Assembly (NCBI RefSeq): GCF_000328685.1
Contig: NC_019974.1
Coordinates: 124,001 to 188,000 of the forward strand
Source: Natronococcus occultus SP4
GTDB taxonomy: Archaea; Halobacteriota; Halobacteria; Halobacteriales; Natrialbaceae
Direction: 5' to 3'
DNA length: 64,000 bases
Shown here: positions 56,921 to 62,597 of the stretch, piece after piece
Layout of the letters: each line of letters opens with the position of its first letter
Position numbering within the stretch: the stretch's first letter is position 1
The notes under the pieces: generated by a model
The model's input: the letters and a program-made list of their open reading frames with translations, nothing else
What the model was told of the DNA's origin: nothing
Databases searched by the model: none
Made by a program: the position numbers and the translations under genes

Positions 56921-57805
56921 ATGATCGATCTCGCGGTTGCAAACGCCGAGGAGACGTTCGAACGGATGCGAAAGCCACTCGCCGAGCGCGGTATCCGTGC
57001 CCGTCACATCCCCGTAAGTGAACGGATCGTCCCGCTTGGCACCGACGCGCCGTGGTCGGCCGGGGAGTACGATGTGGGATTCGTCCATCCCGGTCGGCTG
57101 ATGGAAGGCGGCGTGGCTGACGCAATCCTCGACGTGCCGTGGCTCAACGACCGCGAAGCGGTGCTTACCTCGCGGAACAAGGCCGAGGTGATCGCCCGAC
57201 TCGAACGAGCCGAGCTGCCGGTCCCAACGTCGGCATACGTCTCGAACGACGTCGCCGAGGACGAACTGATCGACGTCTTCGATCGCTTCGATCCCCCGGT
57301 CGTAGTGAAACCCAACTCGACGACCCGGGGTGTCGGGGTCGCGAAGGCCCACGACCTCGATTCGTTTCTGGGGATCTGTGACTACCTCTCCCTCGTCCAC
57401 GACTACCGGGCGACGGGGGATCGCTCCTTTCTGGTTCAGGAGTATCTCCCCGAGGCGACCGACTACCGGGTGATGGTCGTCGACGGGGAGTACGTCGGTG
57501 CCGTCGAACGCCGACTCCCCGACGAGGCGGTCCGGGAGGGCCAGTGGAAACACAACGTCCACCGCGGCGCAGTGGCGCGGGGGGTCGAGCTCCCCGCGGA
57601 GTGGCGTCGACTGGCCGAATCGGTCGCCGACGTCCTCGGCATTCCGTTTCTGGGCGTCGACCTCCTCGAGACGGGGGATCGGCTCGTGATCAACGAAACG
57701 AACGCCCGGCCGACTATCGACGAGGCGACGAAGTACGAACCGTCGTTTTACGACCGTCTGGCGGGCGTAATTTCGGATTATGTGAGCGAAACGACGACTG
57801 TTTAA
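56921..57805 (+). CDS. RimK-family ATP-grasp ligase
   Basis: A 294-residue ATP-grasp enzyme of the RimK/LysX class. The ATP site segments PPVVVKPNSTTRGVGVAKAH and LVQEYLPEATDYRVMVV and the metal-binding INETNARPTIDEATK are present. Such enzymes add glutamate to a protein or cofactor. Its position behind rpl10e raises ribosomal protein modification as an option, but a cofactor ligase role (as in F420 or pterin glutamylation) is equally open. Confidence 0.85.
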   Translation: MIDLAVANAEETFERMRKPLAERGIRARHIPVSERIVPLGTDAPWSAGEYDVGFVHPGRLMEGGVADAILDVPWLNDREAVLTSRNKAEVIARLERAELPVPTSAYVSNDVAEDELIDVFDRFDPPVVVKPNSTTRGVGVAKAHDLDSFLGICDYLSLVHDYRATGDRSFLVQEYLPEATDYRVMVVDGEYVGAVERRLPDEAVREGQWKHNVHRGAVARGVELPAEWRRLAESVADVLGIPFLGVDLLETGDRLVINETNARPTIDEATKYEPSFYDRLAGVISDYVSETTTV

Positions 57806-57966
57806 CGACCGGACGGTCACCGTTTCAGCAACTTGGCCGAGACTGATCGGACGGAACGATCGAAAACCGGGCCCGGTAACCGACATTGATCGCGTAACGA
57901 TTGGTCCGGTTAATACGGAACCCCGGAATTGGCTGGGAATGAGCCACGATGGCTCGAGGACTACCA

Positions 57967-58392
57967 ATGACTGAAGACAACGGGAGTACACGACGCGGTG
58001 TTCTTCGACTCGCTGGAACGGCAGGTATCGGTCTCGTCGGACTCTCCGGCGCGGCTTCGGCGGGCGGAAAAAAGAACGGCAACGACCGGCACAGCCGAAA
58101 GAAGAACGGCGATCGTCGACGCGGAAAGAAGGACGACGGTCCCAAAAAGAAGGACGACGGCCATGCAAAGAAGGAAAACGACCACAAACGTGACCACGAT
58201 CCCAAACACGGTCGCAGGGACAAAAGAAAGGGCCACGGTCACGGCGGAAAGCGCGGTCGACACGGAAAGCGCGGTCGACACGGAAAGCACGGCGCTCCGG
58301 ACCCTGTGACCGACACGCGGGGATTCATCAAGCACACGATGAACAAAGCGCTGGGTCGCTCGGGTGGGCACCGACGACGCTCCAAGAAGTAG
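57967..58392 (+). CDS. Exported Lys/Arg/His-rich protein
   Basis: A 141-residue protein with a Tat signal (STRRGVLRLAGTAGIGLVG, cleavage likely after GAASA). The mature part of about 105 residues is dominated by Lys, Arg, His, Gly and Asp (GGKKNGNDRHSRKKNG, KRGRHGKRGRHGKHG). This is a striking exception to the acidic haloarchaeal proteome, and it has no cysteine or recognised domain. It could bind polyanions such as extracellular DNA, acidic glycans or the acidic cell surface. The upstream ATG at 57949 (MARGLPMTED) is an alternative start. Confidence 0.75.
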   Translation: MTEDNGSTRRGVLRLAGTAGIGLVGLSGAASAGGKKNGNDRHSRKKNGDRRRGKKDDGPKKKDDGHAKKENDHKRDHDPKHGRRDKRKGHGHGGKRGRHGKRGRHGKHGAPDPVTDTRGFIKHTMNKALGRSGGHRRRSKK

Positions 58393-58497: not shown

Positions 58498-58893
58498 TTA
58501 CTCGAGACTGATTCCCGAGGAACGCTCGGCGGGTTCGAAGACGACCTCGAGGACGCCGTTGTTGTACGTCGCCGAGGCACTGTGTTCGTTGACCCGCTGG
58601 GGCAGCGAGACGCGCTCGTCGTACTGGCGGTGGTCGCTCTGGGCCGAGATAGTGAGCGTCTTCCCGTCACACTCGAGGTCGATGTTGTCTTTTTCGACGC
58701 CAGGCAGGTCGGCGACGACGCGGATCTCGTCGTCGGTTTCGTGGATGTCGACGTGGGTGTCCATGCCGAAACCGCTGTCGACAGCGCTCGAGGAGTCGAA
58801 ATCGACGTCGGCACCGTTCATCATCTCGTTCATCATCCGCTCGATTTCCCGAAAGAGATCGTCGAAGGGTTCGTCGCGGTCGTCTCGTCGCAT
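58498..58893 (-). CDS. hsp20: Hsp20/alpha-crystallin small heat-shock protein
   Basis: A 131-residue small heat-shock protein that binds unfolding proteins without ATP. The alpha-crystallin domain covers about 45-125 (VDIHETDDEIRVVADLPGV, GVLEVVFEPAE). The N-terminus has a Met-rich helix (FREIERMMNEMMNG). A CTTTTGG about 27 bases upstream fits the ATG at 58893. Confidence 0.93.
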   Translation of the reverse strand: MRRDDRDEPFDDLFREIERMMNEMMNGADVDFDSSSAVDSGFGMDTHVDIHETDDEIRVVADLPGVEKDNIDLECDGKTLTISAQSDHRQYDERVSLPQRVNEHSASATYNNGVLEVVFEPAERSSGISLE

Positions 58894-58937
58894 AGCTGGT
58901 GATAAGGAAGGGACGGCCAAAAGCTTTCCCCGACGCC

Positions 58938-60005
58938 TCAGTCGGCGGTCTGTCGGTCCACGGCGCGTTCCGTCTCGTTGTCAAGGCGGCCGAGGCCGAT
59001 TCCCAGCGTCTCGTCGGTGAGTGTGCGACTCTCCGGCCCGTCGAGCAGTCCCGTCACCGAGCGGATCGCGTCGATATTCTCCGGGACGACGTCGGACTCC
59101 TGGTGGATCGCCTGCATGCAGTAGAGGTCCTTCCCCTCGAGGGTGAGCGACTCCTCCCAGATGCAGTTCTCCCAGATGTCTCCCCGCGGACGGCCCGCGT
59201 CGAGCGCGAGGTCCTTGAGGGTCCCGGCGCCGTCGATGCCGGCGTAGTCGGGGATCAGGAGAAGGCGGTTCTCCTCGCGGAGCCGTTCCCGAACCGCCTC
59301 GACGCTGTCGGGCTCCTCCTCGAGGGTGATGTTGACCGCGTGGACGTGCATCATCGTCGTGGGGACCTTGAGCCCGATCGTATCGATGTCGAGCTCGGGG
59401 AAGACGGTCTGGACGTCCGGCCCGTGGTGGGAGGGAATCGAGACGGGGTCCGGCAGGGCGTCGTTGATCGGGCCGCGCCCGGTCTGGTTCGGGTCACCGC
59501 CGCGTCGAACCAGGGTTGTCCGTACCTTCTCGATGCCGTAGTCCTCGTGGATGGGTGCGACGAGCCGGGAGAGTCCGGTCGTGTTACAGGAGACGACGCG
59601 AACGTAGTCGGCGTCGGCGGCCTCCTCGTAGTTCGCGCGGGCGTTGAAACTAACCTCCGCGACGGTCGCGTCCTCGCCGCCCTGGAAGAGCGCCGGGGTG
59701 TCGTGGCGCTCGTAGAGCGGTCGATTCTGTTCGCCGATTCCGGAGGGTGTGGCGTCGACGACGACGTCGCTGTCGGCGACGAGCTCGTCGACGGTGCCGG
59801 CGAGCTCGATGCCGGCCTCGTGGAACCCATCGATGCGGTCCTCGTCGACCGCGTAGAGCGGGTACTCCGCCTCGGCCGCCCCGAGGGCGACGTAATCGGG
59901 ACTGACCTTGGCGACGCCGGCAACCTCCATGTCAGGCTGCGATCGCACGGCGTCCGCGACGCGTTTGCCGATGGTTCCATAACCGTTGATTCCGACGCGG
60001 AGCAT
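58938..60005 (-). CDS. gapB: Type II (archaeal) glyceraldehyde-3-phosphate dehydrogenase
   Basis: A 355-residue archaeal-type phosphorylating GAPDH. The Rossmann start [20 protein letters not shown] and the catalytic Cys140 in [11 protein letters not shown] are clear, and [11 protein letters not shown] is typical of the archaeal class. In Haloferax the type II enzyme acts in gluconeogenesis. An ATG at 60017 is excluded because the TATA-like AGTTATG at 60032-60038 predicts transcription from about 60008. An ACTC-N6-GAGT site lies upstream of that TATA box. Confidence 0.95.
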
Positions 60006-60031
60006 ACGCGTCGACATCCACCGTCGACCAG

Positions 60032-60038
60032 CATAACT
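60032..60038 (-). promoter_or_regulatory. TATA element of gapB
   Basis: AGTTATG on the minus strand, centred about 30 bases before the gapB ATG. Confidence 0.45.
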
Positions 60039-60064
60039 GTTTTGCAAGAATCTGATAGATGTTA

Positions 60065-60265: not shown

Positions 60266-60279
60266 ACTCAGATATGAGT
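60266..60279. promoter_or_regulatory. ACTC-N6-GAGT site over the gapA start
   Basis: ACTCAGATATGAGT overlaps the predicted transcription start and the ATG at 60274. Extended, it reads TACT-N7-GAGTG, one mismatch from the TrmB motif. The position suits repression. Confidence 0.55.
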
Positions 60280-61344
60280 GAAAATTCGCACACGGAGAAC
60301 GAGTTCGAGGGGACCCTCCGGATCGGCCTCAACGGATTCGGCCGCATCGGACGGAACGTCCTGCGTGCGTCGCTCGAGTACGATGACGTCGAGATCGTCG
60401 GGATCAACGACGTTATGGACAACGACGACATGCGGTATCTCGTCAAGCACGACTCCGTTCATGGTCGGCTCGAGGACGTAACTCTCGAGGACGACGTCCT
60501 CACCGTCGAGGGCCAGGAGATCCAGCTCTGCTCCGAACGCGATCCGACCCAGCTCCCCTGGGGCGAGCTCGACGTCGACGTCGCCTTCGAGGCGACGGGC
60601 ATCTTCCGTACGTACGACGAGGCGGCCCAGCATCTTGAAGCCGGCGCCGAGAAGGTATTGATCTCGGCCCCACCGAAAGGCGAGAAGGAGGTCCAGACGA
60701 TCGTCTACGGCGTCAACCACGACGACTACGACGGCGAGGACGTCCTCTCGAACGCCTCCTGTACGACGAACTCGGTTGCGCCGGTCGTGCAGGTCCTCGA
60801 CGAGGAGTTCGGCATCGAGTCCGGACTGTTGACGACGGTCCACGCCTACACCGGAAGCCAGAACCTGATCGACGGCCCGCTCAGCAAGCGCCGTCGCGGG
60901 CGCGCCGCCGCCGAGAACATCATTCCGACTTCGACCGGCGCTGCGATCGCTACCACCGAGGTGCTGCCCCAGCTCGAGGGCAAGCTCGACGGGATGGCGA
61001 TGCGGGTCCCCGTTCCGAACGGTTCGATCACCGACCTCACCGTCGACCTTGAGGAAGACGTCACCGAGGAGGAACTCGCCGACGCCTTCCGCAACGCGGC
61101 CGACGACGAGCTCGCCGGCGTGCTCGGCTACACCGACGAGGAGATCGTCTCCCAGGACATCGTCGGGCTCCCGTTCTCCTCGTACGTCGACCTCGAGTCG
61201 ATGATGTCCCTCGAGGACGGCCTCGTCAAGGTGCTGGCCTGGTACGACAACGAGTACGGCTTCTCGAACCGGATGCTCGACCTCGCGACGTACGTCGCCG
61301 CCGAGGCCGAAGCCGACGAGGCCGACGAGGCCGTCGCCCGCTGA
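60274..61344 (+). CDS. gapA: Type I (bacterial-like) glyceraldehyde-3-phosphate dehydrogenase
   Basis: A 356-residue bacterial/eukaryal-type GAPDH. LRIGLNGFGRIGRNVLRAS opens the Rossmann fold; Cys163 in NASCTTNSVAPV is catalytic; WYDNEYGFSNRM closes the C-terminal domain. INDV near 44-47 fits NAD specificity. In Haloferax the type I enzyme is glycolytic. The acidic N- and C-terminal extensions fit a halophile. pgk follows 47 bases later with its own TATA box. Confidence 0.97.
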   Translation: MSENSHTENEFEGTLRIGLNGFGRIGRNVLRASLEYDDVEIVGINDVMDNDDMRYLVKHDSVHGRLEDVTLEDDVLTVEGQEIQLCSERDPTQLPWGELDVDVAFEATGIFRTYDEAAQHLEAGAEKVLISAPPKGEKEVQTIVYGVNHDDYDGEDVLSNASCTTNSVAPVVQVLDEEFGIESGLLTTVHAYTGSQNLIDGPLSKRRRGRAAAENIIPTSTGAAIATTEVLPQLEGKLDGMAMRVPVPNGSITDLTVDLEEDVTEEELADAFRNAADDELAGVLGYTDEEIVSQDIVGLPFSSYVDLESMMSLEDGLVKVLAWYDNEYGFSNRMLDLATYVAAEAEADEADEAVAR

Positions 61345-61391: not shown

Positions 61392-62597
61392 ATGTTCAAG
61401 ACGATCGACGATCTCGACACCGAGCAGCAACTGCTGGTCCGTCTCGACCTCAACGCCCCCGTCGAGGACGACGTCGTCCAGGACAACCGCCGATTCGCGC
61501 GCCACGCCGAGACGCTCCGGGAACTGCTGGCGGACGGCCACGCCGTTGCCGTGCTGGCCCACCAGGGCCGACCTGGCCGCGACACGTTCGTCTCGCTCGA
61601 ACAACACGCCGCGATCCTCGCCGACCACCTCGATCGGGACGTCGACTTCGTCGCCGACACCTTCGGCGAGGACGCGCTGGCGGCGATCGACGACCTCGAG
61701 GGCGGCGAGGCGCTCGTCCTCGAGAACGCCCGGATGTGCGACGAGGAGCTTCCCGAGGAAGCGCCCGAGGTCAAAGCCGACACCGAGTTCGTCCGGACGC
61801 TCGCCCCGGAGTTCGACGCCTATGTCAACGACGCCTACTCGGCGGCCCACCGCTCCCACGCCTCGCTGGTCGGCTTCCCACGGGTGATGGACGCCTACGC
61901 AGGACGCGTGATGGAACAGGAGTACACGGCGAACTCGTCGATCCAGGAGCGGGAGTTCGACGGCACCGTCACGATGGCGCTTGGCGGGACGAAAGCCGAG
62001 GACCTCATCCCCGTCATCGAGAGCGTCGACGGCGTCGATCAGTTCTGTCTGGGCGGGATCGTCGGCGAACTCTTCCTGCGGGCGGCGGGCCACGACGTCG
62101 GCTACGACGTCGAGGGAACCGACTTCTTCGACGACCAGTGGGACGACCAGCGCGAGACGATCGAGCGCATCCTCGAGGAGTACGAAGACTCCCTGTACCT
62201 CGCGACGGACCTCGCCTACGAGGGAGCGGACGACGAGCGCGCCGAGGTCGACGTCGAGGGACTCGAGAAGGAAACGTCCTACCTCGACGTCGGCTCTGAC
62301 ACCGCCGAGACGTACGCCGACCTCGTCCGCGAGTCCGAAGCCGTCTTCGTGAAGGGCGCGCTGGGGGTCTTCGAGGACGAGCGCTTCGCCGACGGCACCG
62401 TGACGGTGCTCGAGGCGATCGCCGAAACCGACTGCTTCTCGGTCGTCGGCGGCGGCGACACCTCCCGGGCGATCGGGATGTACGGTCTCGACGAGGACGA
62501 CTTCGGTCACGTCTCGATCGCCGGCGGCGCCTACGTCCGCGCGCTCACCGGCGAGCCGCTGGTCGCGGTCGAAGCGCTGGAAGCGGCCGCCGAGTAG
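61392..62597 (+). CDS. pgk: Phosphoglycerate kinase
   Basis: A 401-residue enzyme that makes ATP from 1,3-bisphosphoglycerate and works in both directions. The N-terminal LVRLDLNAPVEDD, substrate-binding HQGRPGR and the C-terminal GGGDTSRAIGMYG are characteristic. A CTTTAAG element about 29 bases upstream marks a separate promoter. It is the functional partner of both GAPDHs. Confidence 0.96.
   Translation: MFKTIDDLDTEQQLLVRLDLNAPVEDDVVQDNRRFARHAETLRELLADGHAVAVLAHQGRPGRDTFVSLEQHAAILADHLDRDVDFVADTFGEDALAAIDDLEGGEALVLENARMCDEELPEEAPEVKADTEFVRTLAPEFDAYVNDAYSAAHRSHASLVGFPRVMDAYAGRVMEQEYTANSSIQEREFDGTVTMALGGTKAEDLIPVIESVDGVDQFCLGGIVGELFLRAAGHDVGYDVEGTDFFDDQWDDQRETIERILEEYEDSLYLATDLAYEGADDERAEVDVEGLEKETSYLDVGSDTAETYADLVRESEAVFVKGALGVFEDERFADGTVTVLEAIAETDCFSVVGGGDTSRAIGMYGLDEDDFGHVSIAGGAYVRALTGEPLVAVEALEAAAE

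Follow-up and report, generated by a model that had tools for sequence, protein, structure and literature searches.

The window analysed is a 64,000-base stretch (contig 1, 124001–188000) of the 4,314,118-base genome of Natronococcus occultus SP4. Near its right end, a gene for a small, strongly cationic and probably Tat-exported protein (P0001) lies between genes for a RimK-type ligase and a small heat-shock protein. The reading frame runs from an ATG at 57967 to a TAG at 58392, is open throughout, and reproduces the translation of an earlier sequence-only reading. The features of the locus, in window positions, are:

56921–57805, forward: upstream neighbour, a RimK-type ATP-grasp ligase (Pfam PF08443)
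57885–57918, forward: conserved upstream block ATTGATCnCGTAACGAT..GGTTAATACGG, about 49–82 bases before the ATG, conserved in all five orthologues
57967–58392, forward: gene for the predicted Tat-exported cationic protein, 141 amino acids, stop included, with orthologues and signs of purifying selection
57967–58062, forward: predicted Tat-type signal peptide, residues 1–32, with putative cleavage after ASA; assigned from sequence and pN/pS, and better conserved than any other part of the family alignment
58063–58296, forward: hypervariable hydrophilic spacer, residues 33–110, net +20, 2.6% hydrophobic, AlphaFold pLDDT about 45–50
58125–58188, forward: degenerate tandem repeat, 21-bp unit, 3.0 copies, KKDDGxx-type
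58245–58292, forward: tandem repeat, 18-bp unit, 2.7 copies, 96% match, GKRGRH units, lying over a semi-conserved basic patch
58297–58389, forward: C-terminal module PDPVTDTRGFIKHTMNKALG plus basic tail, with a helix modelled by AlphaFold at residues 117–129; common to ten proteins in three genera
58498–58920, reverse: downstream neighbour and locus landmark, an Hsp20-type small heat-shock protein (Pfam PF00011/PF17886)

The mature chain of 109 residues contains 22 Lys, 18 Arg, 12 His, 12 Asp and a single Glu, giving a net charge of +27 (His not counted) and a pI of 11.5. Haloarchaeal proteomes are taken to be uniformly acidic, and the 57 ORFs of the window that were chosen by codon-position composition as a background have a median pI of 4.4, bearing out the original description of a Lys/Arg/His-rich chain in an acidic setting. 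None of these ORFs comes near the charge density of the protein: its spacer carries +0.26 net charges per residue, against +0.05 for the most basic ORF of the window and −0.10 for the median one. The calculated charge stays at about +21 to +24 over the soda-lake range of pH 9.5–10 (about +24 at pH 9.5). Searches of Pfam, NCBIfam, PHROGs and PDB sequences gave no match to the protein, nor did plasmid and phage records.

The gene occupies the same position, between the RimK-type and Hsp20 genes, in five of nine Natronococcus genomes, the other four carriers being Natronococcus amylolyticus (G003), N. jeotgali (G007), N. sp. A-GB7 (G002) and a Natrialbaceae MAG (G006); the genes of relatives were taken as ORFs rather than from annotations. 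The RimK-type ligase is found in all nine genomes, whether or not they carry the cationic gene, and serves as a fixed landmark. It was rejected as a functional partner, being present regardless, and the cationic gene has a conserved upstream block of its own. This block (ATTGATCnCGTAACGAT..GGTTAATACGG), which includes a TATA-like TTAATA, is probably the promoter; a regulon with a common upstream motif was also considered and dropped, as only one site was found in the genome. Where the cationic gene is missing (G001, G004, G005 and G008), the RimK–Hsp20 distance is 20–63 bp. A tree built from the flanking genes places G005 as the sister of the carrier G003, and what remains between the two flanking genes in G005 matches the sequence that follows the cationic gene in G003, so that G005 most likely lost the gene by a clean deletion; given this deletion, the gene is dispensable. 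Beyond the Hsp20 gene lie two different ORFs, close together (58938–60047, reverse, and 60274–61344, forward), which we take to be glyceraldehyde-3-phosphate dehydrogenase-like, and the second is adjoined by a presumed phosphoglycerate kinase-like ORF (61392–62597).

The five Natronococcus proteins can be aligned at both ends, over signal and C-terminus, while the middle part varies in length, and the lengths differ by multiples of three. In the first 37 codons, nine of the ten orthologue pairs have a pN/pS of 0.13–0.45, the exception (G002–G003) being a very close pair with few changes, and Fisher tests for purifying selection gave P values of 0.0002–0.008 in the pairs tested. The C-terminal 21 codons are under weaker constraint within the genus (pN/pS 0.3–1, not significant taken alone). 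Purifying selection on the signal, together with the retention of frame in all orthologues despite the length changes, indicates that the ORF is a real, maintained gene. The frame, whose maintenance had been put in question at the outset, is thus kept at a single locus in five genomes. Codon usage is atypical, with a third-codon G+C of 0.64 compared to a median of 0.85. An upstream start (ATG at 57949) is unsupported, since in the relatives it does not stay in frame with 57967. Two long ORFs on the opposite strand (57825–58223 and 57961–58371) overlap the gene, and such ORFs occur in a relative also; coding on that strand is unsupported, as substitutions in the signal region are mainly synonymous on the sense strand, and the antisense frames are judged to be a by-product of composition.

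The signal peptide (MTEDNGSTRRGVLRLAGTAGIGLVGLSGAASA, followed by GGKK) has twin arginines at positions 9–10 within the motif STRRGVLR, an uncharged core of about 20 residues, and an Ala-X-Ala site, ASA, before GG. The assignment to Tat was made by motif rather than with a trained predictor. Among the ten members of the wider family R9, R10, L13 and R14 are invariant. The 141 residues contain no cysteine, and with it no lipobox of the kind that marks haloarchaeal lipoproteins. From these features we infer Tat export, signal cleavage and a disordered spacer. An AlphaFold model based on the ten-sequence alignment is confident only for the helix at residues 117–129, where the block pLDDT is 79–85; the remaining blocks do not exceed 54, the whole-model mean is 52, and pTM is 0.24. 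Such a result is expected of a chain that is disordered apart from a short helix at its end.

A profile of the five orthologues recovered further Tat proteins across the Natrialbaceae, three of them with a C-terminal motif PDP(V/I)TD(T/P)xGF. With a profile of the C-terminal 26 residues, searched against 391 genomes of the class and 125 Natrialbaceae genomes, the family comprises ten clear members, has no name, and occurs in 10 of the 125 Natrialbaceae genomes; no clear member outside the Natrialbaceae was seen among the 391. Two of the ten (in G074 and G079) had been left out of profile building. The look at homologues and neighbours that had been recommended therefore yields a Natrialbaceae family, with its Natronococcus locus between the RimK-type and Hsp20 genes. 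Five members belong to Natronococcus, four to one other genus (g7), where they sit at another fixed locus, and one to Haloterrigena sp. KLK7 (G079), where it lies on a 186-kb plasmid and is annotated as a hypothetical protein. All ten are without frameshift or stop. The C-terminal motif of the family is PDPVT[D/E]T-x-GF, with P111, P113 and F120 invariant, and the constants of the family are the predicted Tat signal and the C-terminal helix module.

Between these constants the spacer ranges from 54 to 163 residues and varies also in repeats and charge, its composition running from K/R-rich to G/N-rich, with 4–20% His and 0–6% hydrophobic residues. Repeated 5-mers exceed those of shuffled sequences in nine of ten spacers, and the family spacer is probably repetitive, poor in hydrophobic residues, and disordered. 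In Natronococcus occultus it has 40% Lys plus Arg and 13% His, and the GKRGRH-type units that had been noticed from the sequence alone correspond to the 18-bp tandem repeat; a basic patch related to these units, GGKR(G/D)RHG(K/R)HG, is found ahead of the C-terminal module in three of the four orthologues. The Natronococcus spacers have net charges of +20 to +31, those of g7 range from +4 to +47, and the Haloterrigena spacer has +1; the values outside Natronococcus include +1, +4 and +9. The mature chains of all five Natronococcus orthologues carry +22 to +36 (calculated at +15 to +27 at pH 10), while their spacers differ in sequence and length. Strong calculated positive charge is thus kept within Natronococcus and not family-wide, by an informal comparison of five orthologues from nine genus genomes.

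The reading that we favour, tentatively and with somewhat less than even confidence, is that of an accessory, dispensable polycation of the envelope or matrix, equipped with a docking helix and held by charge to acidic polymers. The protein would be exported via Tat and cleaved to the 109-residue chain, of which about 78 residues would form a disordered, repeat-built hydrophilic spacer ahead of the conserved C-terminal helix module. Once outside, the cationic chain could meet anionic polymers and stay in the envelope or extracellular matrix by charge, and the helix may contact a conserved partner; retention in the envelope, the identity of the partner and a role in the matrix are purely conjectural. 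In Natronococcus occultus the acidic polymer might be the glycosylated polyglutamine wall or an exopolysaccharide. The wall of this species is a glutaminylglycan, that is, glycosylated polyglutamine, and not the usual S-layer (PMC4243693), so an acidic S-layer, which had been suggested as the target, fits poorly. It is this wall, together with a charge that persists at soda-lake pH, that favours an envelope polycation. Export of an unfolded chain also seems plausible: according to PMC6708511, E. coli Tat passes unstructured hydrophilic stretches of about 100–120 residues and stops at a short hydrophobic stretch, and the near absence of hydrophobic residues from the spacers fits such a route.

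The best case for a role of charge is that five Natronococcus spacers have kept it while diverging. The presence of orthologues at one locus in five of nine genomes, selection on the signal, the recurrence of the C-terminal module in two further genera (including a Haloterrigena plasmid), and the single confident helix are consistent with the same reading, as is the one case of an analogous polycation encoded beside glycosyltransferase genes in Natronorubrum daqingense (see below). Against it, the strongest argument is the existence of near-neutral homologues (spacers of +1 to +47). Furthermore, the four Natronococcus genomes without the gene indicate that the wall does not need the protein, purely electrostatic binding would be screened by high salt, and third-codon G+C is low with atypical codon usage. 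Across the family the cationic gene shows no co-occurrence with CapC, the poly-gamma-glutamate gene, which is absent from all nine Natronococcus genomes, so that a poly-gamma-glutamate capsule was rejected as a general partner. The sequence-only reading had proposed an exported polycation, which the sequence and the charge kept in five Natronococcus members support; its further claim, that such a protein has to be of use as a polycation, goes too far, given near-neutral spacers elsewhere and the deletion in one Natronococcus genome. An ORF at 3013–3507 (forward) resembles an acidic lipoprotein, with DDALDDDDDAMDDDE repeats and a lipobox AGC, and has strong matches in several Natronococcus genomes. 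Its suggested role as electrostatic counterpart is not supported: G005 has a strong match to the lipoprotein (E 8e-31) yet lacks the cationic gene.

Near-neutral spacers could also mean that the spacer is a mere hydrophilic, disordered distance-keeper (a bristle or stalk) whose charge drifts, the conserved function residing in the C-terminal helix module. Such a role is possible though doubtful: it agrees with the constancy of signal and module, and with repeat-built spacers of widely varying charge and composition, but free drift predicts that some of the five Natronococcus spacers would be near neutral, whereas all remain at +20 to +31 despite turnover, and within the genus the module is under less constraint than the signal. 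The composition of the spacer is like that of a nucleic-acid-binding tail, and the protein might bind extracellular DNA, as a biofilm matrix or nutrient store; this is improbable, as no DNA-binding domain or family match was found for it, no DNA-uptake or biofilm gene was seen as a common neighbour, and contacts of this kind are weakened in 3–4 M salt. A His-rich metal-binding or buffering protein, suggested by the His content of the spacers and by the RH-type patch recurring before the module in several members, is still less to be expected, since no metal-transport neighbours were seen, His content is uneven, and strict conservation of the patch is lacking. Very improbable, too, is a secreted, halocin-like antimicrobial peptide or precursor. 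Small size, predicted export, cationic charge and patchy distribution would suit it, but the loci differ between genera, near-neutral homologues exist, and an amphipathic C-terminal helix was rejected, being not significant in nine of ten members (the exception is G079). The killing of competitors that had been envisaged accordingly finds no supporting feature: there is no shared neighbour and no immunity-like partner, and charge is not kept. Least credible is a weakly expressed, decaying gene of no present role, since low third-codon G+C, loss in G005 and absence from three further Natronococcus genomes are set against ten intact members, a signal under purifying selection and an upstream block conserved in five of five.

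Other, unrelated Tat-exported Lys/Arg-rich proteins are present in the Natrialbaceae. The five-orthologue profile also found two groups with Tat signals, charged low-complexity tails and different C-termini, and a further protein of this kind is encoded on a Natronorubrum daqingense plasmid (G133):

L072, L073, L074 and L070, near 5.6–6.4 kb, and L076, 5676–6068: second group, net up to +55 in 139 amino acids
L078, 5901–6353; L080, 5843–6307; L050, 1492 on; L053, 1501 on: third group
L142, 4835–5482, reverse: Natronorubrum daqingense Tat protein with KNGRNGK repeats, beside a glycosyltransferase/O-antigen-ligase cluster

In the second group a Tat signal MTEDKKTSDRRGILR precedes GKGKKKGH-type repeats, and the loci are similar in five genomes (G035, G076, G077, G078 and G131), with net charges of +38 to +55, but +11 in G131; the neighbours are presumably shikimate kinase- and chorismate mutase-like genes, as named from our reading of the sequences. 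Members of the third group (G019, G024, G029 and G086) have charged repeats and, in most cases, a conserved C-terminus ETSNxxxExYxDGTxxxTSxVxxDTR; their net charge ranges from −26 to +18, changing sign between members, and they neighbour what we take, again from reading, to be an acyl-CoA dehydrogenase-like gene. The Natronorubrum daqingense protein is built of Gly/Asn/Lys/Arg repeats, has a net charge of +58, and is annotated as hypothetical. A wider proposal, unlikely at present, is that Natrialbaceae have repeatedly and independently evolved Tat-exported polycations that would cross-link acidic wall or exopolymers ionically, the acidic-protein rule being broken outside the cell. It would take in the PDPVTDT family described above, the GKGKKKGH-repeat family (net charges reaching +55) and an AEPEGKPK group that has a C-terminus of its own. 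A recurrent exported class with 35–55% Lys plus Arg, cationic within a genus despite sequence turnover, would show that extracellular charge can be selected for in itself, and would open a way into the organization of the unusual Natronococcus wall.

Among known systems, halocins are similarly small, secreted haloarchaeal proteins (secretion being predicted for P0001), but P0001 has no Pfam or NCBIfam match (libraries of families rather than of single halocins), no immunity partner was found, and charge is not conserved. Two or three family members give weak matches to the collagen-like repeats of Scl-type adhesins (NF038329, PF01391), a similarity of composition only; P0001 itself has no match, no Gly-X-Y periodicity and no LPXTG anchor. 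Hydrophilins are a physicochemical class defined by more than 6% Gly and a mean hydrophilicity greater than 1. The mature chain of P0001 (G000) exceeds both values (Gly 19%, Hopp-Woods mean 1.31), while three of ten family members fall short, G071 and G073 on Gly and G079 on hydrophilicity; P0001 differs in its predicted export, and the class implies no homology. Comparable, too, are the unstructured hydrophilic Tat substrates studied in E. coli (Richter et al. 2007, as summarised in PMC6708511), where a Tat signal is likewise followed by a short unstructured hydrophilic stretch with nearly no hydrophobic residues. Those are engineered constructs, whereas P0001 is encoded naturally in a haloarchaeon, has a conserved helix at the C-terminus and carries a high positive charge, and its family offers natural, presumably disordered Tat substrates.
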